Below, piece by piece: positions 492 through 29,478 of a stretch of DNA of 64,000 bases. The position numbers and the translations under genes were made by a program. A model generated the notes under the pieces. That model had not been told where the DNA came from and searched no databases. It saw only the letters and a list, made by a program, of their open reading frames with translations. Origin of the DNA: Lachnospiraceae bacterium (GTDB lineage: Bacteria; Bacillota; Clostridia; Lachnospirales; Lachnospiraceae); the NCBI GenBank assembly GCA_017396555.1, contig JAFQLS010000024.1:1-64000 (forward strand). Direction: 5' to 3'. The first letter of the stretch is position 1, and each line of letters starts with the position of its first letter.

Positions 492-1682
492 GTGGTTATA
501 TTGAAGGAATTTTATACAGCCGGAGAACTGGCTAAATTGACAGGTGTATCATATAAAACTATAAGATATTATGTTGATAAGGAATTGATAGAACCTGAAT
601 ACATAACCGATAGTGGTTATCGTATGTATGGTAAAAGGATGCTAGAGATACTGCAAAGAATATTGTTGCTAAAATATTTGGATTTCTCATTGGATGACAT
701 TAAGGATATATTGAAAAAAGATGACTCAATAGCGGTATTTAAGAAGCAGGAGGAATTATTACAGGCACAGAAGAATCATTTAGAGCAAGTTCTTTTAGCT
801 GTTAAAGAGATTCAAAATGTAGAAGAAAACGAGAAGTGGGATAAAATGCTTAATATAATAAATATGACATCACGCAAAGAAGAATTGATAAAACAGTATA
901 TAAAAGGAGAAAATTTGCAAAAACGTATAAATATACATGAGTATAGTACATCTAAGGTGGACTGGTATCATTGGGTTTTTGAAAAGCTACAACTTAAAAA
1001 TGATATGAAGATTTTGGAGGTTGGATGTGGTAATGCATGTTTCTGGACTTCCGTGTGTAAAGAATTACCGGATAATCTTGAGATTATTTTAACTGATAAT
1101 TCAGAAGGAATGCTAAATGAAGCAAGAGAAGAAATACAAAAATATAGCAATATATTTGATAGGAAAAAAATTAAGTTTACATTTTTACAGAAAGATGCGG
1201 AAGAATTTAGTATTGCTGAAAAAGATTTTGATATAATTATGGCAAACCATATGCTATATCACATATCAAATGAAAAACGTCAGAGTTTATTTGAAAAGTG
1301 TGTTAAACTTTTGAATCCGAATGGAGTGTTTTTTGCAACAACTGTGGGGCAAACTCATTTCAAAGAACTATTTGAATTAATAGAAAATTTTGATAAAAGA
1401 ATAGAAGTTCCTAACTGGATATCAGAAAACTTTGAATTGGAAAATGGAGAGAAACAGTTAAAGAAAGTTTTTAGCAAGGTAAGTGTTGAAGAACAGAAGA
1501 ATGATTTGCTTGTATCAGATCCTGAAGCGATATACCAGTATGTTATATCATTGCCCGGTAGTATAAGTATAACTATAAAGGAATATGATAAGGAATTTAG
1601 AAAATATTTGACAGCAAATATTTCACAGGATAAGCCGTTTTTTATACATAAGTCGGCGGGAATATTTAAAGCTTGTAATTGA
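492..1682 (+). CDS. MerR-family regulator fused to SAM-dependent methyltransferase
   Basis: Residues about 6-75 form a MerR winged helix-turn-helix (FYTAGELAKLTGVSYKTIRYY, then the ITDSGYRMYG wing) followed by a coiled-coil dimerisation helix to about 130. From about residue 165 a class I methyltransferase begins, with motif I ILEVGCGNA, an acidic LTDNS turn and a DIIMANHMLYH segment typical of type 11 methyltransferases. It probably senses a small molecule through, or modifies it with, its C-terminal domain. The GTG start has AAAGG just upstream; TTG at 501 is an alternative start. A second methyltransferase follows after 16 bases, so the two probably form an operon under the MerR-like operator at 432-462. 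The ligand and methyl acceptor are unknown. Confidence 0.88.
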   Translation: MVILKEFYTAGELAKLTGVSYKTIRYYVDKELIEPEYITDSGYRMYGKRMLEILQRILLLKYLDFSLDDIKDILKKDDSIAVFKKQEELLQAQKNHLEQVLLAVKEIQNVEENEKWDKMLNIINMTSRKEELIKQYIKGENLQKRINIHEYSTSKVDWYHWVFEKLQLKNDMKILEVGCGNACFWTSVCKELPDNLEIILTDNSEGMLNEAREEIQKYSNIFDRKKIKFTFLQKDAEEFSIAEKDFDIIMANHMLYHISNEKRQSLFEKCVKLLNPNGVFFATTVGQTHFKELFELIENFDKRIEVPNWISENFELENGEKQLKKVFSKVSVEEQKNDLLVSDPEAIYQYVISLPGSISITIKEYDKEFRKYLTANISQDKPFFIHKSAGIFKACN

Positions 1683-2389: not shown

Positions 2390-2423
2390 ATCCTTGCTTT
2401 GTGTAAGTTACGCAAAGCAAGGA
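2390..2423. terminator. Bidirectional intrinsic terminator
   Basis: A perfect 12-bp stem, ATCCTTGCTTTG (2390-2401) with CAAAGCAAGGAT (2412-2423), sits between two convergent genes. A-rich DNA on one side and T-rich DNA on the other allow use in both directions. Confidence 0.85.
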
Positions 2424-2433
2424 TAAATTTTTA

Positions 2434-3687
2434 TTAACCTCTTTTATCTATAATAGTTTTAAGCTTACCTGTTCTTTGATTATATTCAAGCTCAGAGGTA
2501 GAACACCAAATAATTTCTGGAGCGATAACATCATCGGCATCCACAGCATCCTTTAATAAAGGTCGTTGTTCGTAGAGTATCTCTATAAATTTTTCTGTAT
2601 TTACGTTGTTAGTATCAGAAACTGCAATTTTGAAAGTAAACTTGTCCTTTATATCATGAGTAACTATAATCTGATATGCTTCGTAATCAATAGAAGCTAT
2701 TTTAAGCACATCGGCAATATCTTGAGGAGATATGGAAACATAACCGGCTTTAGCTGAGGTTTGTGCTCTTCCCAGTAATCTGAACTTTCGATCCGGTATA
2801 CCTTCTGGTTCAGTGTATTCACCAAGATCTCCTGCAGGATAACGGATTAGAGGAATAAGTGTTTTGAAAAGTGAAGTAATATATATGGCTCCCGGACGGT
2901 TCATTTCATGAATTACCTCACCTGTATCAGGATCAATAAGCTCAATAATAGTAAGGTCTGATAGAGTCCTATGTTCGTTATAGCCGCAATCTTTGGTAAA
3001 ATAGCCTATGGGACCGCCATCATTTGAAGCATAGAATACTGAACGAAACTCAATTTCTCGTCCAAATGTTTTACAGATTCGTTCTCTTTGATCGGGATAG
3101 AGAGTTTCACCTGCAAAATATATTGTGTCAACAGTAAAGCCTGTAAGGTTATTTTCATTTATGTATGATATTATTTGGTTGATAATAGAAGGAAGTCCGG
3201 CAATACAATTTATCTGATGTTCTAAAATAGTTTTTGTCATTTCTTCAATAGAACCGTTTCCGGAAATGTTATACATTATGGTTTTTGCAGGAGCAAAATA
3301 TAGCATACTATAAGTATAGAGAAAACTTGCATACATTCCGCCAGCATAAAATAAGTTTGCTATCTTGCTTCCGTTTTTAAGACCACCCTTTGCGAGGACT
3401 GCACCACTATATTCACACATAGTTTGCCATTCTTCGGCAGAATAAAGCGAATATTTTGGTTCACCGGTGGTACCGCCACTTTTAAATACTTGTCCATCGT
3501 GTTGGGTAAATGTTGCTACTTTGCCGCCGTGTTTATCACAATTATCCCAAAAATCACTTTGGTTTATAAGTGGTAGTTCTTCTAATGTTGCATTTTCAGG
3601 AATGTCCCTATAAAGCTCTTTGTAATAAGGTGAATTAGTTCTTGCATGTTTTATTATCTCATTCAGAGAATATAGCTTGTAACTCAT
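2434..3687 (-). CDS. PaaK-like adenylate-forming ligase
   Basis: This 417-residue ANL-superfamily enzyme is of the phenylacetate-CoA ligase/coenzyme F390 synthetase type. The phosphate-binding loop SGGTTGEPKY is at residues 70-79, followed by FYASNDGGPIGY (acceptor/aromatic motif region), RYPAGDLGEY (the conserved Y-x-x-x-D motif) and a short C-terminal lid ending in RTGKLKTIID. It should activate a carboxylic acid as its adenylate and pass it to a thiol. It is the last gene of the five-gene minus-strand operon, 11 bases after the ATPase-fold/GNAT gene, and has a GGAGG site. It is the second PaaK-like module of the operon. The acid substrate cannot be read from sequence. Confidence 0.85.
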   Translation of the reverse strand: MSYKLYSLNEIIKHARTNSPYYKELYRDIPENATLEELPLINQSDFWDNCDKHGGKVATFTQHDGQVFKSGGTTGEPKYSLYSAEEWQTMCEYSGAVLAKGGLKNGSKIANLFYAGGMYASFLYTYSMLYFAPAKTIMYNISGNGSIEEMTKTILEHQINCIAGLPSIINQIISYINENNLTGFTVDTIYFAGETLYPDQRERICKTFGREIEFRSVFYASNDGGPIGYFTKDCGYNEHRTLSDLTIIELIDPDTGEVIHEMNRPGAIYITSLFKTLIPLIRYPAGDLGEYTEPEGIPDRKFRLLGRAQTSAKAGYVSISPQDIADVLKIASIDYEAYQIIVTHDIKDKFTFKIAVSDTNNVNTEKFIEILYEQRPLLKDAVDADDVIAPEIIWCSTSELEYNQRTGKLKTIIDKRG

Positions 3688-3698
3688 AAATGTACCTC

Positions 3699-5138
3699 CT
3701 ATTCTTTGTTTGATGTCATATTAATTATATCGTTTTTAAGTTCTTCAAATTCTCCCACAACAACCAAATCATTGTAGTTAAAACTATCGCCAGGGAGCAT
3801 TTGCATTATGAGGTAATCACCATTTTCACTACCGGGAATAACACCGGAAAGTGCAAACCCGCATTTTTTAGCGATATCATAGGCATAAGCACAACTTTGT
3901 GTGTTGAGTAATATGACGAGTTCTACCATTTCGCTTTTTTGTTTTATTATGTTTTTTATGGATTGTTGTAACTCATTTTCCAAATCAAAGCCTGCCTTGC
4001 GAATAATAATTTTAGACATTTTAAGAGTTGTACTTGTTTCCAAGGATATTTCCGTACAATTATCAGCTTTAGATTCGCAGATAATATCGTATCGTATCCC
4101 TAATCTTTTATATATCTTATCTAGGAAATCTCTGAGTTCATCAGGTGAATATATCTTGCTGTATATATCTTTATCAAGAATTTTTACACAAGCGCTAAGA
4201 CCTAATCTTTCACCTTTATTGTATTCCGTTTCGATTTCCGTATTTATGTATGACATAAGTAAGGCGGTTGCAGTGTAGCCGGCTCTTAAAAAGGCTTTCT
4301 GTGACATAGGGTGGTAGGTAACAGGTTGTCCCATGAGTGCGCGGAAGCCTTCTTCTTTGCCTAAAATTTCACAGTATTCAATAAATTTTGCAAATAGACC
4401 TAATCCACGAAATTCTTTTTTTATAACTACTGTAGAAATTTCCGGCATATTTTTGTAAAGGTCAGAGAAGGCGAGGGCAAAATGTCCTGCGGTTTGTCCG
4501 TGCTCGTTTACAGCTAGGAAAGACATTATTTCTCTGTTTTTGATAAGTTGAATAAAGGAATTCACGTAATAAAGTCGCTCATAAGAATATGAATATCCAT
4601 ATTCAGAGTAAATGCATCGGATTGCTTCAATAACATCTTCCTGACTTGTAACGGGACGAATTGATATATTTGTATCAAGTGCGACTGTTTCTTTGTAAGG
4701 CTCCGGTTTTGCAAATTCTAAAGGATTAATGAATTTTTTGCGTATATAAACGCGTTGTCCTTCGTTACCTAGCTTTTCCATACCAACTTCGTCTACATAG
4801 AGACTGATAAGATAATTATTTAGATCGTCCCTGTTTTCTGTAATTTCATTTTTATCATAGGTAAAATCCTGCCAACCGGGTACGCCCTTATCTTTTACGG
4901 AAATTTCAATAAAATCACCTACTAAATAAAGCTCTACATATATTGGACCTGTTGCTCCGGGATATGAATTTTCAATTCTTTGCTTTAACATTCCTGCTGC
5001 TACATATCTTAGTTGTTGATATCTTGAAACATCCATAGTTGTATGGCGTTGAGCAAGAGAATCTATAAAGCTTAGTACAGGGAAAATATACGCCTTGTCA
5101 TTTTTTATTTCTATAGAAACTAGTTTTTTTCTATTCAT
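3699..5138 (-). CDS. HATPase-like domain fused to GNAT acetyltransferase(s)
   Basis: I place the start at 5138, where AAAGGAG lies 9 bases upstream; the frame itself is open to 5222 inside the MATE gene. The 479-residue product has an N-terminal RsbW/anti-sigma-like GHKL fold: an ISVKDKGVP box around residue 80-87 and a GNEGQR loop at about 124-129. A GNAT domain follows (about 160-315) with acetyl-CoA loop EFRGLGLF at about 245-252. The C-terminal third ends in a second, degenerate GNAT-like unit (AKKCGF segment). The gene overlaps the MATE gene by 8 bases, implying coupled translation. It probably acylates an amine in the Lux-like pathway; the role of the GHKL part is unknown. Confidence 0.78.
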   Translation of the reverse strand: MNRKKLVSIEIKNDKAYIFPVLSFIDSLAQRHTTMDVSRYQQLRYVAAGMLKQRIENSYPGATGPIYVELYLVGDFIEISVKDKGVPGWQDFTYDKNEITENRDDLNNYLISLYVDEVGMEKLGNEGQRVYIRKKFINPLEFAKPEPYKETVALDTNISIRPVTSQEDVIEAIRCIYSEYGYSYSYERLYYVNSFIQLIKNREIMSFLAVNEHGQTAGHFALAFSDLYKNMPEISTVVIKKEFRGLGLFAKFIEYCEILGKEEGFRALMGQPVTYHPMSQKAFLRAGYTATALLMSYINTEIETEYNKGERLGLSACVKILDKDIYSKIYSPDELRDFLDKIYKRLGIRYDIICESKADNCTEISLETSTTLKMSKIIIRKAGFDLENELQQSIKNIIKQKSEMVELVILLNTQSCAYAYDIAKKCGFALSGVIPGSENGDYLIMQMLPGDSFNYNDLVVVGEFEELKNDIINMTSNKE

Positions 5139-6852
5139 TATTTTCAGCTCCTTTGATGCATAATCTGTTAAGTCCAAGGACAGGTCCATATTCTGTTTCG
5201 AGACCCTCATAGTGGAGTGCATTTAAGTCATTGCGAATACTTGAGTGGTTAATATTATCGCGTATAATTACCTTCTTTTGGTAATTGTTTTTTTCAACCT
5301 CTATGTATTTGCCGGTCTTTATGTCGGCTACGGATTGAAGCTTTACAAGATATTCTTTAACAATGTTTAAGATTTGTGTACCATAAATTTTGTCTTTTTC
5401 TATAGTTGAAATAACGATGTTATTAAAGCTTTCGAAATCATCTGAATTACACTTTAAAATAAAAGAAGATGTATTTTTTTCTTCATCTTTATTTAAAAAG
5501 AGTAAATTAAGGTTAGTGCCATTTTTAGAAAGCTTTTTTCTTTTAAGGATATTTAATATACCAAATATTACTAAGGTTAAAAATTCTGCTACTGTGTAAG
5601 CTGCCCATATACCGTTTACTCCAAATATTTTGCTTAGAACAAAAGTGCTTGCGAGGAGTAGAACACAACATCTAAGGCTGATAAGTACACTTGCCATAGA
5701 ACTCATTTCAATAGATTGAAGATAATATCCTATTATTACATTTACTGTCATAATAAGCATGCTTGTAGCATAAATTCTAACTGCCATAGAAGACTGGTTT
5801 ACTAAATCTATATCTGCAATTCCGAAAATATGAGGAACAATTTCCGGAATGATTTCTAATACAAGCATAATACTGCCGCATATTACAACTGCTGCCAGTA
5901 GTGCAAGCTTGATGCTGCCTTTGATTTTCTTATTGCTGTTTTCACCATAATACACACCTACCATAGGTTGGATTGTTTGGCTTAGACCTTCAAATACCGC
6001 AAGAGAAACAGTGCAAAGATTAAATACTACTGTATAAATTACGACACCCTTTTCGCCGGCCATTGATACCACATAATGGTTTAGTATAATTATTGTGATA
6101 AACTGATATATAAAGGTAAGCGCAGAACCAATACCGTTTTTTATAATTCGAAGTATTGAACGGTCAAATGCTAAAGATAGGCGAAGAGTATTTTTGGATG
6201 AAAAAAAGTGACTCGCTATTATGATAACACTAATACCTTGACCTAATACGGTTGAATAAGCTGCTCCTGCAACGCCCATATTCATATATCCAACGAATAC
6301 AAGATTGAAAGTAATATCTACAACAATTGATGTAAACATTCCTGCCATTGAGAGGTTAGGTCTACCATCATTTCTTACAAAAAATGCAATAGCAATATTC
6401 ATTATAAATATTGGTGCTCCCATTAAAATAATCTTTACATATGTCTTAACTTGTTCAAACACCTCGGTATTTCCGGCACCGAGCAAATAGGTTATTTGTT
6501 CGGTGAAAAATATTCCTGAAATAAATAAAATCAAAGCTGTAGCCAGTAAAAACTCCATAGAAATACTAAAGGAGCGGTTGGCACTTTTTTTATCGCCCTT
6601 TCCAATGTCAACGCTCATTGCTATACAGCCACCAACTGCAAAAAGAGCTGCCAATGTATTTATGACCATATAAACGGGTGTTGCATAGGTTACAACTGAT
6701 AAGGATAAATCATCAAGGTATTGACCTATTATTACGGTGTCAGCCATTGAACCTATTGCAGTTGTAAGATTCATAAGAATTGTGGGTATTAAAATGCTCA
6801 TAAATGTTTTGATTACGAGAGGATTTCGTTTTACATAAAATGTATTTTCCAT
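5131..6852 (-). CDS. MATE-family exporter with cytoplasmic GHKL-like tail
   Basis: The likely start is 6852, with AAGGTGG upstream, 13 bases after the LuxC-fusion stop. The first about 440 residues form the twelve-helix MATE/DinF-type fold, with GSMADTVIIGQYL near the N-terminus and a second half beginning near IRIIKNGIGSAL; such proteins export drugs or lipophilic metabolites using Na+ or H+ gradients. An unusual hydrophilic tail of about 130 residues follows, ending in YGPVLGLNRLCIK. That ending resembles the last strand and helix of RsbW-like ATPase domains but lacks clear N and G1 boxes. It may bind the GHKL domain of the next protein. Its position in the operon suggests it exports the pathway product. 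Confidence 0.85.
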   Translation of the reverse strand: MENTFYVKRNPLVIKTFMSILIPTILMNLTTAIGSMADTVIIGQYLDDLSLSVVTYATPVYMVINTLAALFAVGGCIAMSVDIGKGDKKSANRSFSISMEFLLATALILFISGIFFTEQITYLLGAGNTEVFEQVKTYVKIILMGAPIFIMNIAIAFFVRNDGRPNLSMAGMFTSIVVDITFNLVFVGYMNMGVAGAAYSTVLGQGISVIIIASHFFSSKNTLRLSLAFDRSILRIIKNGIGSALTFIYQFITIIILNHYVVSMAGEKGVVIYTVVFNLCTVSLAVFEGLSQTIQPMVGVYYGENSNKKIKGSIKLALLAAVVICGSIMLVLEIIPEIVPHIFGIADIDLVNQSSMAVRIYATSMLIMTVNVIIGYYLQSIEMSSMASVLISLRCCVLLLASTFVLSKIFGVNGIWAAYTVAEFLTLVIFGILNILKRKKLSKNGTNLNLLFLNKDEEKNTSSFILKCNSDDFESFNNIVISTIEKDKIYGTQILNIVKEYLVKLQSVADIKTGKYIEVEKNNYQKKVIIRDNINHSSIRNDLNALHYEGLETEYGPVLGLNRLCIKGAENNE

Positions 6853-6865
6853 AGAGTCACCCACC

Positions 6866-9340
6866 TTAATTAGAATTTCTACGGTCGATGACACTTCTTA
6901 CTTTTCCTCCGGCAGAACTAAGTTCGAATTCATCTTTTTTCTGCTTTAAAATACGTACATCACCAGTTTTATCTGTAAGACATTCTTTAATTTCGTCATA
7001 ATTCTTCATTAGAATCTCAATTGCAGCTTCAGTAGTATAGTCAAAATCTTCTTCGACACAAATTGTTAAAACACTAATGGTATCATATGATAAGATAACC
7101 TGAAGCCAGCCGTTATAATTCATTTCTTTAGAAAAAATCGCCTTGATATTTTTGTAGTTTACATAGTTTGTTGCAAATTTGAACACGTCACCAAATCTAC
7201 CTAAAAGTTCAAAACGAGGTGAGAGTCTGCCACATTTACAAGGTTCTTTTATAAAGCGGCCAAGGTCACCTATTTCATATCTTTTGATTGTTGTATTTTC
7301 TTGATTTGTTGGAGTCCATATAAGTCTTCCTATTTCACCTTCATCTACAGGTTCATCACTATCAAGCTTTAAAATTTCAAGATATTTGCTTGGCGCAATA
7401 TGATGAATTCCTCCATCACAGTATTCACAAGCATAACCCATAGAACCGATTTCATTACAACCGTAGGTGATTGAGGCGATTCTTTTTATATTAAACGTTT
7501 CCTTGAGATATTCTGCCTGAGCAGTATCAAAATGTTCACCACCATATAAAATAAGGTCTATTCCGCCATATTCTTTTAAGGTTTCCTTCTCTTCCGAAAA
7601 TAGTCTCAAAAGGTATGTAGGCATTCCCATAAGTACGTTTACTTTATTTGCTACAATTTCTTCTGCAACATGTTTCATGTCCATGGCTGCAGTCATAGGA
7701 AGCTGAATAATGTTTGCACTTTTTAGTGCTTCATAAATGCTTATGAAACCTCCATATAATTCTCCTGAATAAAATAGATTCATACATATATCTTTTTCGG
7801 GATCAACACCTGCGGCTATGATAAAACGACCTGTTTCTTTGTAAGTGACTTCTGCATCGCTATAGGTATGAAGTGCATATTTTGATTTTCCTGAGCTGCC
7901 ACCACTTTTTAATACAAGATAACCTTCATTCTCGATTTCTCTCGTTGTAGGAAAGTCGTCTTTCTTTAGTATAGGGGTGCCGTCTTCAAAAGGTTTCATA
8001 ATGTCAGTAGTCATTTCGACAAGAGAGGTACAACCTTTTGGTAGTCTGTTGTTAATGAAACTTATTCTTTTAAGATAACGGGTCATGGCATATACACCAT
8101 CATGAGGTTCGCCGGTGTATCCACCCATCATAAGTCCCGGCTCTGTTATACGTGTAACGCCACCGGCAATTAATAGATTTGTAAGTTCAATAATTTCATC
8201 CGACCTGCAAGCAAGACCAACACTTTGAAGATATGAGCGAAATGGTCTTAATACGCTAATCAAATCACTTCTTTTTATAGCTTTAACAATAATTGTGCGA
8301 TATAGTGGTGAGGCACAAAGTTCATTATCAAATTTAACAAATATACGGCAATCTTTTCCTTCAATAAGTTTGGCTTCTCCCATAATTTCATCAAGATAAC
8401 ACAATTTGGTTTGAGCTGTAAGTTCGGCTCTCTCAGCTTGTGTCATAGGATGGAGAGGATATGTATCAGACACCTGACTAAGTGCCATGAATAAATCATC
8501 GGCAAATTTCAAAAGCTGTTCCCTCGAGTCGGTTTCAAAGTACACAATTTGAGGTGCACTACAAGCTTGTTGGTCATTTATACATATATCATGAGAAAGC
8601 CCTACTAATTTTTCTTTGCTACAACCATTTGGAGTGAAGTAAGCAAAGCTTATTCTATTACCCCATTCAATAATATTTACACCGGTCGGTGCAAGTTCCC
8701 TTACACCTGAAACAGCACCGTCGCCACCCCAGACAGCAACAGAGTTACAGAGACTAAAAAGCTCCTTTAATAGCTCTTTATCCTTTGAAGAAAGTGGAAA
8801 TACATAAAAATAAGGACAAAGTAATTCGTCAATTTCACAAAGTTTTTCTACAAGCTTCATAGCAACCTTGTGAGCACCGGAAGCTGTTTTTATAACATTT
8901 ATATTGCCTGTTAAAATTCCTTCAACAGAACTGTAAAAAGGAAGCATTGCATCGTTTGAACTTGTAACATGTCCTAAGACACCTACAGGCATCCAGCCTT
9001 CAAAATGATTTTCTCTTGTGTTTTGTAAAGTGATTTCAAAGGGAAGACAACCAAGCTCTCTATCTATTTTTTTGTAAAGTTCCTCGGCAGATAAAATACC
9101 AAGAGAATCCTTTTTTGTCTGAATAGCTTCTTCCTTTGATAAACCTAGTTCCATAAGTTCCGGAACTAAAAATATTTCATCTTCAGCAAGGAATTTACCA
9201 AGTTTATCAAGACTGGTAATCACTCTTCTGGTGTCAGGAACTCCATTAGACAGGTCTTTGCTGATTTGTTCGTTTATACCTTGAAAACAGCCTTCTTTTT
9301 TTAGTGTTTCTCTTTTTCCTCTAATTATAAATTCTGTCAT
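6866..9340 (-). CDS. LuxC-like acyl reductase fused to PaaK-like AMP ligase
   Basis: The start at 9340 has a near-perfect AAGGAGGTG site; the upstream extension of the frame overlaps the LuxE gene and is ignored. Residues about 1-440 are an acyl-CoA/acyl-ACP reductase of the LuxC family (aldehyde-dehydrogenase fold), with the candidate acyl-accepting cysteine C260 in NDQQACSAPQ. Residues about 450-824 are a PaaK-like adenylating domain, with P-loop SGGSSGKSKY from residue 479, GCNEIGSMG and KRYEIGDLGR. The combination could activate an acid and reduce it to an aldehyde within one polypeptide, analogous in logic to carboxylic acid reductases but built from different parts. It lies 14 bases after the LuxE-like gene. 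Substrate is unknown. Confidence 0.85.
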   Translation of the reverse strand: MTEFIIRGKRETLKKEGCFQGINEQISKDLSNGVPDTRRVITSLDKLGKFLAEDEIFLVPELMELGLSKEEAIQTKKDSLGILSAEELYKKIDRELGCLPFEITLQNTRENHFEGWMPVGVLGHVTSSNDAMLPFYSSVEGILTGNINVIKTASGAHKVAMKLVEKLCEIDELLCPYFYVFPLSSKDKELLKELFSLCNSVAVWGGDGAVSGVRELAPTGVNIIEWGNRISFAYFTPNGCSKEKLVGLSHDICINDQQACSAPQIVYFETDSREQLLKFADDLFMALSQVSDTYPLHPMTQAERAELTAQTKLCYLDEIMGEAKLIEGKDCRIFVKFDNELCASPLYRTIIVKAIKRSDLISVLRPFRSYLQSVGLACRSDEIIELTNLLIAGGVTRITEPGLMMGGYTGEPHDGVYAMTRYLKRISFINNRLPKGCTSLVEMTTDIMKPFEDGTPILKKDDFPTTREIENEGYLVLKSGGSSGKSKYALHTYSDAEVTYKETGRFIIAAGVDPEKDICMNLFYSGELYGGFISIYEALKSANIIQLPMTAAMDMKHVAEEIVANKVNVLMGMPTYLLRLFSEEKETLKEYGGIDLILYGGEHFDTAQAEYLKETFNIKRIASITYGCNEIGSMGYACEYCDGGIHHIAPSKYLEILKLDSDEPVDEGEIGRLIWTPTNQENTTIKRYEIGDLGRFIKEPCKCGRLSPRFELLGRFGDVFKFATNYVNYKNIKAIFSKEMNYNGWLQVILSYDTISVLTICVEEDFDYTTEAAIEILMKNYDEIKECLTDKTGDVRILKQKKDEFELSSAGGKVRSVIDRRNSN

Positions 9341-9354
9341 GTTGTAACACCTCC

Positions 9355-10473
9355 TTATCTTTTTAACAACTCGCTTGCTTTTATTGCACAGCTTTTTGTA
9401 GCACTTGTTCCCGCTCTTCCAAGAATTTCCATATATGGCGTATCTATACCGCAACCGCATTTGCCCGGTTCGTGTAATACAGCCATATCTCCCATAAGAA
9501 CAGAGACCGCAGGTACACTCATAAGATGTGGAGTAATAAAATTAGCAAATCCTGGTTGACCGTAAGGTAAAGGTTTAAGTGTTTCTACATCACGAATAAT
9601 CATTCTGCTATATACAGGAATGTGAAAATGATGATTTTTACATTCAAAGTATGGTACAGAATGTTCTGTGGAACCATAACCATCACGGCAATTTTCCTGA
9701 GGGATTCCAAGCATTTCTTCAACTAATGCGTAGAGTTCACTTTTTTGAATTTGTTTATCTGCATAGCCCTTCCAGCCACCACCGAGCAGTGTCATTGATT
9801 GAGGGTTAAGTTTTAATGGTCGATGATTAGTTTCTTTCATCTGTCTAACTGTAAAATACAAGAATGATGGGAAACCAAAGATTCTAACAGGTTTACCTTG
9901 TTTTTCGTATTCTTCTAATATGTTAATTGTGCCATATACATCAAAATCATGACCTTGACCATTATAGCGAAGGGCAAAAAAAGTATCATTTACCGGTGCA
10001 TAACTTAAAAGACCTAAATCTGTTTTGGCAGTACCTAAATCTTTGCTGACTTCAGCTGGTTCATATGTAAATAAAAGATAGTTTGTAAGTTCTTCTGAAA
10101 GAAAACCATAATAACGAAACTCATTTTCTATCATGGAATTTCCAAAATCAAAACTATCTTTATCAAAAAACATCTGACTCTTTTGTCCGCCGGTTCCGGA
10201 GCTTGTAGCATGTTCTGTAATTGATTCCCGTGGAACAGAAAGAACCTCGTACTTTTTAAAGAAATTTGCATGAATAACCGGGATTTTTTCTAAATCAGCT
10301 TCTGTTTGTAGACATTCTGCTTTAAATCCTGAATCTTCGCAGAGTTTTGAAAAAAAATCACAGTTTTTAATATGATGTTCCAAACATTCCCTCATAGCTT
10401 CTAAGAAAAGTTCTGACGAATGCTTGTGATCATAAACATTTTCGAGTTTTAATAGTTCGTGTCTTGCCGTCAT
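9355..10473 (-). CDS. LuxE-family acyl-protein synthetase
   Basis: The 372-residue protein matches the LuxE family in length and motifs. The adenylate loop SSGTGGQKS is at 91-99, DGYGSTEHSVPYFEC is the acceptor region and RAGTSATKS lies near the C-terminus. In luminous bacteria LuxE activates a fatty acid as AMP ester and hands it to LuxC for reduction. Here it is the first gene of a minus-strand operon whose next gene contains a LuxC domain, so that partnership is conserved. No luxAB is nearby, so the aldehyde is not for light. The GAGGTG site supports the ATG. A possible promoter with TATAAT at 10539-10534 has only a weak -35. Confidence 0.86.
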   Translation of the reverse strand: MTARHELLKLENVYDHKHSSELFLEAMRECLEHHIKNCDFFSKLCEDSGFKAECLQTEADLEKIPVIHANFFKKYEVLSVPRESITEHATSSGTGGQKSQMFFDKDSFDFGNSMIENEFRYYGFLSEELTNYLLFTYEPAEVSKDLGTAKTDLGLLSYAPVNDTFFALRYNGQGHDFDVYGTINILEEYEKQGKPVRIFGFPSFLYFTVRQMKETNHRPLKLNPQSMTLLGGGWKGYADKQIQKSELYALVEEMLGIPQENCRDGYGSTEHSVPYFECKNHHFHIPVYSRMIIRDVETLKPLPYGQPGFANFITPHLMSVPAVSVLMGDMAVLHEPGKCGCGIDTPYMEILGRAGTSATKSCAIKASELLKR

Positions 10474-10660: not shown

Positions 10661-10680
10661 ATCATAGATAATATTCAAAT

Positions 10681-10950
10681 GCGAAGATGGAGACAGGCAT
10701 TATTTGGAAAGTCACAGAGAGTCCACGTTGGTGCGAGTGGATACGAGTAAGGATAATGATGAATCACTCCGGAGCAGCAACCTGAAGAGACACATTTATG
10801 TGCGAGTAGGTGTTGACGGTTTTTCCACCGTTATATGGAACACATATACAAGTATGAAGGAATAATCCTAATATTTAAGTATGGCTGTAACAGGTGGTAT
10901 AACGAATTTTAAGAGCTTTCGTCCTATTACAGGATTGAAGCTCTTTTTAG
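10681..10950 (+). promoter_or_regulatory. T-box leader (isoleucine-specific)
   Basis: The leader has a long stem I with a specifier-loop context GA-AUC-ACUCCGGAG. The AUC triplet at 10763-10765 is an Ile codon. The conserved T-box-like sequence CAGGTGGTATAACG (10891-10904) is followed by a terminator: AAGAGCTT (10911-10918) pairs with AAGCTCTT (10938-10945), with TCCT/AGGA inside, and then a T-run. Uncharged tRNA-Ile would stabilise the antiterminator and switch on ileS, which starts 22 bases downstream. Confidence 0.95.
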
Positions 10951-15628: not shown

Positions 15629-15657
15629 AGAAAGAGTATATGGGAGGTGATCAGTAA
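15619..15657 (+). other. A7 slippery run with -1 frame continuation to TAATG
   Basis: The sigma gene ends AAA AAA TGA within seven A residues. A shift of -1 continues the frame to TAA at 15655-15657, overlapping the next start codon. The same segment carries the GGAGGTG ribosome site of the next gene (15643-15649). Confidence 0.6.
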
Positions 15658-16613
15658 TGAAAACAAATGAATTAATAGCAAAGTTACAAGATGGATTTGA
15701 TGAGCTGGCACCTGATGTATATTCAGAAGTAGAAAAATCTATTGCGAAAACAGAGATTATCTATGAAAAAGAAAATTCAAAAATTAGCATGATTAAGTAT
15801 ATATTTTCAGGAGTAAGTCTGGCTGTAGTTTGTGTAGTGTTTTTTCTAATTATGATTAATTCGGAAGAAAATGTGAGTATAATAATCGATGTTAATCCAA
15901 GTATAAAACTTGTTATTAATGAATCACAGGAAGTGATTAGTATTAATGGACTTAATGAAGACGGAGAAAGAGTAGTGAATATGCTTGACTGGGAGAAAAA
16001 AGATTCATCGGAATCTGTTATAAAAAAAATGATTAAAATAATGGCGGAGGAAGCTTATATAAAAAATGAATCAGATATACAGGTTACTATACAGACAGTT
16101 GATTATGAAATATATGGAAAGATGGAAGAAGCAATCAAATATGAAATATATGAAAGTTTAAAAGAAAATGAAATAGAGGACATAGAAGTAGAGTTTTATC
16201 AGAAAAATAAGTCAAATCAGACAGTTGGTGATAATAAGCAAGATGATACAAAAGAACCTGAATTGATAGAGACCATTAATGAGGAATCGAAAATTAATCT
16301 TGAAACTACTACAAAAGAATTTGAAACTCAAGATGAAACCACATTGAAACAAACGAATATAGAAGATACAACAATGGAGATGGATAAGGAAACAAAGGAA
16401 GAAAAGACGAAGAAGGAAAAAGAAAGCAAGGAAGAGAAAACGAAGAAGGAAAAAGAGAGCAAAGAAGAGAAAACGAAGAAAGAAAAAGAAAGCAAGGAAG
16501 AGAAAACGAAGAAAGAAAAAGAAAGCAAGGAAGAGAAAACGAAGAAGGAAAAAGAGAGCAAAGAAGAAAAAAACAAGAAAGAAAAAGAATCAAAGGAAAA
16601 AAACGTTAAATAG
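15657..16613 (+). CDS. RsgI-like membrane anti-sigma factor with Lys/Glu repeats
   Basis: The 318-residue protein has a cytoplasmic N-terminal region of about 45 residues and one transmembrane helix (about 48-68, YIFSGVSLAVVCVVFFLIMI). It then has the RsgI-type extracytoplasmic core with the hallmark IIIDVNPSIKLVIN and NGLNEDGERVV. The C-terminus is a Thr/Glu linker and six tandem 11-residue repeats (KEEKTKKEKES type). It probably holds the adjacent ECF sigma factor at the membrane and releases it on an envelope signal. RsgI proteins usually pair with SigI, so pairing with an ECF factor is of interest. GGAGGTG precedes ATG by 7 bases. Confidence 0.82.
   Translation: MKTNELIAKLQDGFDELAPDVYSEVEKSIAKTEIIYEKENSKISMIKYIFSGVSLAVVCVVFFLIMINSEENVSIIIDVNPSIKLVINESQEVISINGLNEDGERVVNMLDWEKKDSSESVIKKMIKIMAEEAYIKNESDIQVTIQTVDYEIYGKMEEAIKYEIYESLKENEIEDIEVEFYQKNKSNQTVGDNKQDDTKEPELIETINEESKINLETTTKEFETQDETTLKQTNIEDTTMEMDKETKEEKTKKEKESKEEKTKKEKESKEEKTKKEKESKEEKTKKEKESKEEKTKKEKESKEEKNKKEKESKEKNVK
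16395..16592 (+). repeat. Six 33-bp tandem repeats (coding)
   Basis: Six consecutive in-frame copies of a 33-bp unit encode KEEKTKKEKES (the sixth has N for T). Copies differ at few bases, suggesting recent expansion by slippage. Copy number may vary between strains. Confidence 0.9.
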
Positions 16614-22385: not shown

Positions 22386-23399
22386 TTAGTTGGTTAACTT
22401 ATTTAGCTCATCCTTTAATTTAGCTATTTCTGCTTCAGCAGCAGCTAATTTTTCATCAGTTTCCTGATAGCGCTTCTCTTTTTCTAGATAAATTTTATCT
22501 TTTTCTTGATAGGTTTTATCTTTTTCTTGATAGGTTTTATCTTTTTCTTGATAGGTTTTATCTTTTTCTTGATAGGTTTTATCTTTTTCTTGGTAGACTT
22601 TTTCTTTTTGCTGATACATTTTATCTTTTTCTTCGTACATTTTATCAAGATGGTCATATTCAAGTATTATTGATTCATCCATATCTTCTATAACCTCCAT
22701 TTGAGTATAGTCGGAATAGAGATGCTTGTATAATAGTTTTGTTAGCTGAATTAATCGACCAGCATCGCTTCCGGTTATATTTCCTACAGAGTGATTCATC
22801 TGTATACTACCGATTATATCATTGTGAATTAATTTTTTCAATGCGATTAAATTCTTCTCTGAATGATCTTTTTTTAATAAATCTCGCAGTCTAAGCAATT
22901 CAAAAGGTATTAATATAATCATTTTTTTGTTATTAATTTCTTCTACGGAGTATTCTTGATACTTAAAAGTTTTAACCTTATATTTAAACTGACCCTGCTC
23001 ACCAAAATCAATAGTTAAAGTGTATGTATCAGGTACTTTTTTGGTATTTCCAAAGTAAACTATTTTTGGCTCTGGAAAATGTAATATATCAGGTTCATAT
23101 TGATTCATAATACTATGCTTATATCCGTAGTCAAAGACACGCATAACAATGTCATCATCTTCGTAAAGCTGTGCCTCAATATGATAAATATTATGTCTGT
23201 TAACGGTGATTATAGTATCTGCCAATGTTTTCCTAAGATCGTCATCTATAAACTCCGTCCAATGATATTCTATCTCGCTATCTAAAGGATAATCTGTGTC
23301 AAATAATCCGTTAATCATATTGATTACTGCGGTTGAGGATAGAGTGATAACTTTTTTAAAAATCTTATCGTAAATATGTTGAATGTTGTTATTTGATAT
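22386..23399 (-). CDS. Rpn/PD-(D/E)XK-family protein with heptad-repeat tail; apparent AUA start
   Basis: The first ATG is at 23318, but the frame upstream encodes a coherent N-terminus (ISNNNIQHIYDKIFKKVITL), which is the conserved beginning of this Lachnospiraceae family. A GGAGG site (23407-23411) is spaced 7 bases before an AUA codon at 23399 that would replace the usual ATG. With that start the protein has 337 residues. The core shows ADTIITV and YHIEAQ, fitting the D...ExQ active site of Rpn (PDDEXK) nucleases. The C-terminal third is a coiled coil of YQEKDKT heptads. The AUA may be used weakly or may mark a decaying gene; starting at ATG 23318 would delete the conserved helix. Function is inferred only from family. 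Confidence 0.75.
   Translation of the reverse strand: MSNNNIQHIYDKIFKKVITLSSTAVINMINGLFDTDYPLDSEIEYHWTEFIDDDLRKTLADTIITVNRHNIYHIEAQLYEDDDIVMRVFDYGYKHSIMNQYEPDILHFPEPKIVYFGNTKKVPDTYTLTIDFGEQGQFKYKVKTFKYQEYSVEEINNKKMIILIPFELLRLRDLLKKDHSEKNLIALKKLIHNDIIGSIQMNHSVGNITGSDAGRLIQLTKLLYKHLYSDYTQMEVIEDMDESIILEYDHLDKMYEEKDKMYQQKEKVYQEKDKTYQEKDKTYQEKDKTYQEKDKTYQEKDKIYLEKEKRYQETDEKLAAAEAEIAKLKDELNKLTN
22493..22597 (-). repeat. 21-bp tandem repeats encoding heptads
   Basis: Four identical 21-bp copies (22493-22576) and a fifth imperfect one encode YQEKDKT heptads of the preceding gene. Perfect identity suggests recent slippage; the repeats encode a coiled coil. Confidence 0.92.
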
Positions 23400-26217: not shown

Positions 26218-26407
26218 AAAAAGCCTTGCTATAAAGCAAGACTTTTTAGTTCTATTTGTAATACAACTTTCTTTCGCATACGCTAAGATGGATTATGGTA
26301 AGTTGCCACCTTTGTAAACCTCCATAGTCACCGCATTCCATCACGGATTCTACTTCAAAGGTAAATAAAGCATTTTAGTGAGTGCGCGTCTCAAGAAGTA
26401 TTCTTCT
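26218..26407 (-). ncRNA. Candidate structured small RNA with own promoter and terminator
   Basis: A strong minus-strand promoter (26414-26442) would start a transcript near 26407. It opens with an AGAAG/CTTCT hairpin and contains possible pairings such as ACCTTTG/CAAAGGT and GATGGA/TCCATC. It ends in a 13-bp terminator stem, AAAAAGTCTTGCT with AGCAAGGCTTTTT (26247-26218). The only notable ORF inside (26341-26252, 29 codons) lacks a ribosome site. The RNA, about 190 nt, lies directly upstream of the PBECR4 gene and could be its RNA antitoxin, an attenuated leader, or an independent sRNA. No tandem repeats typical of type III antitoxins are visible. Confidence 0.65.
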
Positions 26408-28386: not shown

Positions 28387-28440
28387 GAAATTCGCTTTAA
28401 ATTATTTTAAAGCGAATTTCTCTTTGGTTAAAGCGAATTA
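28387..28440 (+). repeat. Left 54-bp inverted repeat flanking DUF4325 gene
   Basis: A 15-bp dyad GAAATTCGCTTTAAA / TTTAAAGCGAATTTC (28387-28401 and 28406-28420) plus a half-site TTAAAGCGAATTA (28428-28440) that includes the gene's stop codon. By hand alignment, 46 of 54 bases match the reverse complement of 29479-29532. The dyad may also act as a terminator. Confidence 0.85.
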
Positions 28441-29448
28441 CCCGCGTACATGGTTATACATTTTAGATATATCTTCGTTCATATTAATAGGAATTAGTTC
28501 TATTTCAGGATATGCATTGGTAAATACAACAAATAACTGATGTGCAAATCCCTGTCCTATCCATTCTACTCCATCAAAATCAAGTATAACTTCTTTGAAT
28601 TTTTCAAGTCGGTTACATATTCTTTTAGCCTGAGATCTTGATACGGGAGAAGATTCAAATATATTTTTGATTGGAATCTTGGTTTTAGTAAAACTGCCAT
28701 CATCATTTGCGTATAAGTCAAAGACTTCCTTTGCTTCTTTGTGTGAATAGTTGGATAAACTCATTACTACACAGGTACCTTGTATATTGGATGAGACCAA
28801 GTCTATAATGTGACTGTTATCAAATTTAATAATTGTGAATATTTTATTATCTGAAATTATAAAAAAATCATCCATCATTCTAGAAGAAAAGAAAATTCCT
28901 TCACCGGAATGATTTATATGGTCTGTTGTTAATTTTCCCTTAAATAGTTCGCATATAGCATCATCAAGGGTTGGAAAGTTAAAGTGCTCTTTTATTTTTT
29001 TAAATATTCCAATTCCATTGTCTGTCATAGCCACCGTTGTAGTAAGATAATCTTGCTCAACTATTATATTAAAAATATCCGATTGTGAATGATCAATAAC
29101 ATTGTTTGTCATTTCTGTAAAAACATAGCTCCATATTGATTTTATATTACTACTCATATTTTTTATGTGATTTATAAAATATGTCTCAAAGGCATAAGTA
29201 TCGGAATCTAATTCGCCTCTTTTACGCTCTAAAGAGTACACAGATTTTGTTTTAATTAGTTCGTATTCGCCACGTTTGACTCTTCTGATAATATTACTAT
29301 TAACCAGTTCATTAATATAGGTATGAACGGTATTTTGGTTTATTGAGAAATTTTCAGATACTTTTTTAGATATTTCACTATCCTTATTTTGAATTTTTTC
29401 TAAAAGATAAATTATAATGGTTTCTTTTCTTTCTTTATCAAACTTCAT
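28438..29448 (-). CDS. Winged-helix / HATPase / STAS-like (DUF4325) regulator
   Basis: The start at 29448 has GAGGTG upstream. Residues about 1-70 form a winged HTH (SEISKKVSENFSINQNTVHTYINEL, wing VKRGEYELI). Residues about 85-230 form a GHKL ATPase domain: N box TEMTNNVIDHS, G1 DNGIGIF, G2 HSGEGIFFSSRM. Residues 235-336 are a DUF4325 STAS-like domain (PVSRSQAKRICNRLEKF, VILDFDGVEWIGQGFAHQLF). This is a one-polypeptide version of a kinase/STAS partner switch that binds DNA. It is bracketed by inverted AATTCGCTTTAA sites at both ends, probably its own operators. Its targets and signal are unknown. Confidence 0.85.
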   Translation of the reverse strand: MKFDKERKETIIIYLLEKIQNKDSEISKKVSENFSINQNTVHTYINELVNSNIIRRVKRGEYELIKTKSVYSLERKRGELDSDTYAFETYFINHIKNMSSNIKSIWSYVFTEMTNNVIDHSQSDIFNIIVEQDYLTTTVAMTDNGIGIFKKIKEHFNFPTLDDAICELFKGKLTTDHINHSGEGIFFSSRMMDDFFIISDNKIFTIIKFDNSHIIDLVSSNIQGTCVVMSLSNYSHKEAKEVFDLYANDDGSFTKTKIPIKNIFESSPVSRSQAKRICNRLEKFKEVILDFDGVEWIGQGFAHQLFVVFTNAYPEIELIPINMNEDISKMYNHVRG

Positions 29449-29478
29449 TCTAATCACCTCTTCTCTTTATTATACGAG

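Follow-up and report, generated by a model that had tools for sequence, protein, structure and literature searches.

Leupeptin is acetyl-Leu-Leu-argininal, a protease inhibitor, and its operon, leupABCD, was reportedly described by Li et al. in 2020. Its synthesis is described as the work of individual AMP-dependent ligases together with a reductase (PMC11212599), and a leupeptin acid reductase reduces the peptide acid with NADH and ATP (PMC7714073). The leup operon has been tied to leupeptin, a lysine analogue and a derived pyrazinone, and 427.30 is given as the [M+H] mass of leupeptin (PMC11480411). A 2025 paper has a region named 'Leupeptin' in its region table. In Klebsiella, leupABCD occupies positions 315353-321183 (5.83 kb), with a transporter as neighbour; amplification from the start of leupA reaches leupB within 1,235 bp (PMC8283571). 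In K. oxytoca CAV1374 (CP011636.1), leupA-D correspond to AB185_06775 to 06790. Here we analyze a stretch of 64,000 nucleotides from a Lachnospiraceae bacterium (the window: positions 1 to 64,000 of contig JAFQLS010000024.1), in which five minus-strand genes at 2434-10473 encode, in transcription order, a LuxE-like acyl-protein synthetase, a fusion of a LuxC acyl reductase with a PaaK-like AMP ligase, a MATE-family exporter, a GHKL-GNAT protein and a stand-alone PaaK-like AMP ligase. We consider it likely that this operon makes and exports a small, N-capped, leupeptin-type peptide aldehyde, independently of nonribosomal peptide synthetases (NRPSs).

Enzymes and exporter of the operon

A preliminary description, made from the sequence alone, had delimited the operon and named its five products. 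Its coordinates, strand, gene order and spacing were all confirmed. With gene starts picked by eye as those with a ribosome-binding site, neighbouring genes are 14, 13 and 11 bases apart, except for MATE and GNAT, which overlap by 8 bases. Profiles, homologues and structural models upheld all five identities, so that the three adenylating modules, one reductase, one acyltransferase and one exporter of that description are present.

The LuxE-like protein matches Pfam LuxE (PF04443) with an E-value of 1.5e-37 and aligns, C-terminal cysteine included, with the LuxE chain of the solved LuxC-LuxE complex (7xc6_E, 81 bits). In the fusion, a LuxC domain (residues ~40-430; PF05893, E 2.3e-74) is followed by a PaaK-like AMP ligase domain (~455-824; Pfam AMP-binding, E 2.1e-7). 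Cys260 of the LuxC domain sits in a DQQAC motif that aligns with the DQQAC of the solved LuxC (7xc6_A). We take Cys260 and Cys362 of the LuxE-like protein to correspond to the acyl-carrying cysteines of LuxC and LuxE. For conservation, we counted those proteins from 86 loci (defined below), the window included, whose alignment covered more than 90% of the query. Cys362 was present in all 81 LuxE rows, and Cys260 and Lys813, the C-terminal lysine of the ligase domain, in all 80 fusion rows. The homology to LuxC and LuxE, with both catalytic cysteines kept, fits a reductase able to form an aldehyde from an activated acid.

For the stand-alone PaaK, the Pfam AMP-binding match was weak (3e-5, under the Pfam cut-offs), and the three best NCBIfam matches were all AMP-ligase models (E 3.1e-22 to 1.3e-13). 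Its AlphaFold2 model (mean predicted local distance difference test, pLDDT, 88.6) found PaaK1 as the best structure match (E 3.1e-28), with AjiA1, NatL2 and ClxA lower in the list. The phenylacetate-CoA ligase equivalog TIGR02155 gave 52.6 and 54.7 bits, far from its cut-off of 646.3. The C-terminal lysine of the stand-alone PaaK, Lys408, was kept in all 73 aligned rows. With no exception at the two acyl-transfer cysteines or at either ligase lysine, all three adenylating modules and the reductase appear to be active. The operon holds stand-alone AMP-dependent ligases (PaaK, the PaaK domain and LuxE) in place of an NRPS, of which no domain was matched by profile in the five genes, and the stand-alone PaaK is predicted to be a peptide-bond-forming ligase.

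The GHKL-GNAT protein comprises an N-terminal GHKL domain, degenerate by eye, a GNAT domain and a C-terminal half that by eye is again GNAT-like. Its own Pfam matches were weak and under the cut-offs (GNAT 6.7e-4, GHKL 8.4e-4). Those of its homologues were stronger, with HATPase_c_2 at 8.3e-20 in Dokdonella and 1e-13 in a Methanomassiliicoccus bin, and GNAT at 8.2e-11 in Dokdonella. The AlphaFold2 model (mean pLDDT 84.7, predicted template modelling score 0.66) resembled N-acetyltransferases (E 3.6e-8), RimL and SpeG among them, over ~170-190 alignment columns; no GHKL protein was found in the 50 structure matches listed. We therefore regard the protein as a predicted N-acyltransferase, as the corresponding leup enzyme would be judging by its product. 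The GHKL domain, clear in distant homologues and degenerate by eye in the window, may be structural only, and its fusion to GNAT is an unexplained variant.

The exporter matches Pfam MatE (E 3.6e-28) and has 12 predicted membrane segments by hydropathy count. It carries a C-terminal extension of ~120 residues, which may be a degenerate GHKL domain; no profile supported a GHKL identity for this tail in the window, and the MATE homologue of the archaeal bin (L084) has a tail that appears RsbW-like by eye. The GNAT fold and MATE together would provide the N-acyltransferase and adjacent transporter of a leupeptin-type pathway.

In total, the operon accounts for three adenylations, two of them for amide bonds and the third for a reduction, together with a reductase, an N-acyltransferase and an exporter. 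This count matches the needs of an N-capped tripeptide aldehyde, which favors the leupeptin-type reading. The preliminary description had expected an exported acyl- or aryl-aldehyde, alcohol or amide; the exported aldehyde was right in kind, but it had been overlooked that the parts list is that of a capped tripeptide aldehyde.

The substrates, the assignment of each ligase to a bond, the product and its export are what we infer from here on. The GNAT part would acylate an amino acid, for example leucine, at the alpha-amine. Each PaaK module, the stand-alone one and the one in the fusion, would adenylate an acyl-amino acid and couple it to the following amino acid at the latter's amine, two such ligations giving a capped tripeptide acid. 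LuxE would then adenylate the C-terminal carboxylate, take the peptide acid onto Cys362 and hand it over to Cys260 of LuxC, whose domain would reduce the acyl group with a nicotinamide cofactor to the aldehyde, and MATE would export the resulting inhibitor. Reduction of a peptide acid with NADH and ATP, as published for leupeptin, is what such a LuxE/LuxC pair would do, which supports the match.

Recurrence and distribution of the gene set

A tblastn search of a plasmid collection with the fusion matched 97 records. Six of these covered at least 80% of the fusion: four from Streptomyces/Streptantibioticus, two of which represent one strain, and two from Salmonella. Five of the six were retrieved, and all five carried the same enzymes. 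Genome contigs searched with an alignment of five fusions held 397 relatives, of which the best 80 were combined with the five plasmid loci into a comparison set of 85 (86 with the window).

LuxE, the fusion, PaaK and GNAT were all present, at a coverage of at least 60%, in 72 of the 85 loci, and in 65 all four enzyme genes lie on one strand within 10 kb. The preliminary description had made its proposal depend on conservation in other genomes, and this turned out to be wide. As the set recurs so often, the five genes are not a chance assembly. LuxE is the sought gene that adjoins the fusion in 83 of the 86 loci, and the window's exact five-gene order on one strand occurs in five (the window included). 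By a crude count that has no control, 64 of the 86, again including the window, have within 3.5 kb an open reading frame (ORF) for which seven or more membrane segments are predicted.

Among the loci retrieved, Streptomyces often carries the set, also on megaplasmids. Its carriers include S. albireticuli (L096) and S. noursei (L064), presumably classic leupeptin producers. The Salmonella plasmid cluster, with the order LuxE-fusion-PaaK-GNAT, measures 5.76 kb, close to the 5.83 kb of leupABCD, and its first gene 1.13 kb; a short ORF upstream of it looks by eye like an MFS transporter fragment. Both Salmonella sets (L023, L024) are on IncF plasmids with recombinase genes nearby, and the acyltransferase gene of L024 is broken in two pieces.

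A tree of the fusion was built from 38 of the 86 loci; long ORFs entered it with their final 870 residues. The window and two Clostridia bins formed a group (support 100/100) within a clostridial clade, whose outer members were a Fibrimonas bin, a Eubacteriales bin and the Methanomassiliicoccus bin. The actinomycete rows formed one side of a branch, and the Salmonella and archaeal rows had long branches and an unsure placement. The rows span nine phyla by submitters' titles, and bins can hold stray contigs. By record title, the nearest loci include four from goat gut bins (L028, L029, L031, L034) and two from deer gut bins (L030, L032).

Within the family the operon is patchy, since in a sample of 397 Lachnospiraceae genomes only the window's own was among the matches listed for the whole fusion. 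At E 1e-40, 18 of these genomes matched, and the 17 others matched the LuxC part. These 17 matches are stand-alone LuxC genes (L003, L004, L006-L020), 31-35% identical to the LuxC domain, and that of L007 has two internal stops. The source genome itself, whose assembly is 85% complete, has one LuxC-family gene. A phage or viral origin was rejected: two of 50,697 phage records matched, neither covering 80% of the fusion, and a scan of IMG/VR confirmed none of 32 candidates.

Product of the operon: evidence and alternatives

The set is real and conserved, and it is probably an active peptide-aldehyde operon, a variant of the leupeptin-type pathway in a Clostridia-type genome. That its product is leupeptin itself has, in our estimate, slightly less than an even chance. 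The tie to leup would follow from gene content, stoichiometry and gene sizes, by analogy rather than by sequence. Streptomyces are known leupeptin producers, and a title on the transfer of leupeptin production by conjugation stands in the reference list of the same paper (PMC8546846). The preliminary description knew of no pathway with this set, a statement that is probably wrong because the synthesis of leupeptin by separate AMP-dependent ligases and a reductase is already in print. A match to a known cluster is accordingly probable by gene content, with leupABCD as the counterpart.

Several observations weigh against this assignment. The likeness to leupABCD is one of description and not of the sequences of characterised leup proteins. 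With up to three mismatches allowed, the published leupA/leupB primers matched nowhere in the Salmonella cluster, and the first residues coded by the leupA primer presumably look no less like the beginning of an ATP-grasp protein than like that of a LuxE. A search of 369 gammaproteobacterial genomes gave a single match at E 1e-100, the search centre itself, in a sample apparently lacking Enterobacterales. Enterobacterales rpoB would score above 76% identity, and the best rpoB in a 339-genome gammaproteobacterial sample reached 76%, which suggests that this sample was without Enterobacterales and hence without the operons of Klebsiella, Photorhabdus and Xenorhabdus. A 3.9-kb stretch of the Salmonella cluster had no match in the E. 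coli genomes. None of the four producer species of PMC8546846 appears among the titles of the best 80 of the 397 loci, and leupeptin is listed among NRPS-made Streptomyces compounds in PMC10548850, so that the Streptomyces argument is not clean. No report of leupeptin in Clostridia or the rumen was found in the literature searched.

The acyltransferase and the composition of the set bring further difficulties. The GNAT pyrophosphate loop reads RGLGLF in the window and RGQGVA in Dokdonella. It is non-canonical in the clostridial clade, where it ends in a bulky residue, whereas canonical GNAT loops end in a small one. For this reason the cap may not be acetyl; going by the sequence, it may differ from acetyl or be absent. 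Seven of the 72 full sets have one gene on the opposite strand or farther away: PaaK is on the opposite strand in L055, L067, L082, L100 and L103 and far off in L089, and in L036 LuxE is split into two pieces, which lie on both strands. For L084, PaaK was matched weakly (23% identity, 55.5 bits). In 13 of the 85 loci one or more core genes are missing. The DNA ends at or near the cluster in L026, L027, L032, L039 and L065, and L086 and L097 have little DNA on the side where relatives hold PaaK, but the incomplete sets of L038, L072, L073, L077, L078 and L079 are not explained by a contig end.

The families themselves would also allow another product. LuxE and LuxC are defined on fatty-acyl substrates and both acyl-transfer cysteines are retained, so the operon could reduce a fatty acid to a long-chain aldehyde or alcohol in LuxCE fashion, with the extra ligases and GNAT making a lipid amide or ester and MATE exporting it. 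We consider this improbable. A plain aldehyde needs neither two further ligases nor a GNAT, and the LuxE-like protein, at only 81 bits to the solved LuxE, is 44-46% identical to the Streptomyces and Salmonella set members. The scores are far from the NCBIfam equivalog cut-offs (70 of 750 bits for LuxC, 104 of 550 for LuxE), and no match to the bacterial luciferase family was found in the source genome at its 85% completeness, in line with the preliminary description of an operon without luciferase. Plain bioluminescence-type aldehyde synthesis was therefore rejected as the principal interpretation; neither equivalog-level LuxC and LuxE nor a luciferase was found, and LuxD was not searched for.

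An equally low probability goes to an aryl pathway, in which the PaaK modules activate aromatic acids, as in the benzoxazole and bagremycin pathways, to yield an aryl aldehyde or amide. The fold matches include AjiA1, NatL2 and ClxA, the last two solved with salicylic and 3-amino-4-hydroxybenzoic acid, and BagE/FevW is among the profile matches; all of these presumably work in natural-product pathways. The BagE/FevW model is, however, far under its cut-off (40 and 38 of 800 bits), none of the five genes is recognisable as making an aromatic acid, and the leupeptin pathway explains the whole set without extra genes. Less probable still is an acyl-modification cassette for a glycan or flagellin. 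Genes of the LuxE/LuxC type reportedly come up in work on flagellin modification or glycosylation (PMC4875605, PMC7874193), and flagellar-looking genes are present by eye at ~47-64 kb of the window, but these lie ~37 kb or more from the operon, the five genes gave no glycosyltransferase or sugar-gene profile match, and the exporter is of the drug type.

If the leupeptin-type reading is correct, commensal Clostridia carry a pathway for an exported small-molecule protease inhibitor, and a peptide aldehyde released in the gut could hit host trypsin-like enzymes or the proteases of competitors. No clostripain-type C11 protease, a possible local target, was matched in the source genome. A pathway known from nematode-symbiont and respiratory-tract bacteria would prove to be widespread in bacteria, and LuxE beside a LuxC-PaaK fusion, with PaaK and GNAT, would be a simple signature for finding such inhibitors. 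A broader proposal, which we hold to be doubtful, is that this is an old and widespread NRPS-free peptide-aldehyde family of at least nine phyla, including one archaeal (a bin), in which gut Clostridia make inhibitors of non-leupeptin cap and sequence, exported by MATE and with GHKL on the acyltransferase and perhaps the pump, by which commensals set local protease activity.

Surroundings of the operon and comparison with known systems

Table 1. Operon genes and flanking elements in the window
Feature	Position	Strand	Remarks
LuxE-like acyl-protein synthetase	9355-10473	-	372 aa, first gene
LuxC-PaaK fusion	6866-9340	-	824 aa from ATG at 9340
MATE-family exporter	5131-6852	-	573 aa
GHKL-GNAT protein	3699-5138	-	479 aa
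Stand-alone PaaK-like AMP ligase	2434-3687	-	417 aa
Terminator-like hairpin, 16 pairs	2390-2424		Pattern scan; between operon end and convergent methyltransferase gene
T-box leader of divergent ileS	10675-10929	+	Rfam 75 bits, E 1.9e-16; gathering score of 93 not reached

The operon is transcribed away from ileS, and the T-box and ileS are the operon boundary, outside the pathway. At the other end, the hairpin is shared with the convergent methyltransferase gene and has the longest stem of six terminator-like sites in the region, a count not above chance (shuffle mean 4.3, sd 2.7). The convergent genes are a MerR-type regulator-methyltransferase fusion at 492-1682 (+) and a second methyltransferase at 1699-2385. 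In a tblastn search that found the window itself as positive control, ileS and both methyltransferase genes had no match in L026-L036, of which L026, L027, L032 and L035 are each shorter than 10 kb, and a conserved genomic neighbourhood around the operon was therefore rejected.

Elsewhere in the window, the predicted protein at 28438-29457 (-) seems by eye to begin with a helix-turn-helix, followed by a GHKL ATPase core and, at the C-terminus, a STAS-like stretch. Two genes contain tandem repeats. That of the protein at 22386-23318 has 7.5 copies of a 21-base unit (22477-22633), and that of the protein at 15657-16613 has 5.9 copies of a 33-base unit (16395-16589) in the part coding for the tail; this second gene comes after one resembling a sigma factor by eye. 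A drum RNA lies at 26259-26363 (-) (Rfam RF02958; score 50.9 bits, gathering score 43).

Among known systems, the NRPS-made antipain, MAPI and flavopeptin and the tRNA-dependent livipeptin belong to the same expected product class, but unlike the NRPS-made peptide aldehydes the window's five genes had no NRPS domain match. The LuxC-LuxE system of bioluminescence (7xc6) shares the families and the two acyl-transfer cysteines, whereas in the window LuxC is fused to PaaK and a further ligase and a GNAT are present, and the 85% complete source genome gave no luciferase-family match. The PaaK-MFS-GNAT-LuxE-LuxC/PaaK set on a plasmid of Streptomyces sp. NBC_00158 (L022) has the same four enzyme types, with identities to the window of 36% for the fusion, 46% for LuxE and 34% for PaaK. 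It differs in having MFS instead of MATE, a GNAT without a GHKL match and another gene order, and the two GNAT proteins gave no BLASTP match at E 1e-3.

The leupABCD operons of Xenorhabdus, Photorhabdus and the Klebsiella oxytoca complex (PMC8283571, PMC11480411, PMC11212599) differ from the window in the phylum of their hosts, and only the window has MATE inside the operon and GHKL fused to GNAT. Likewise composed of four enzymes with an adjacent transporter, they employ separate AMP-dependent ligases and an aldehyde-forming reductase as the window does, and in total and first-gene length they are similar to the Salmonella cluster that is homologous to it.

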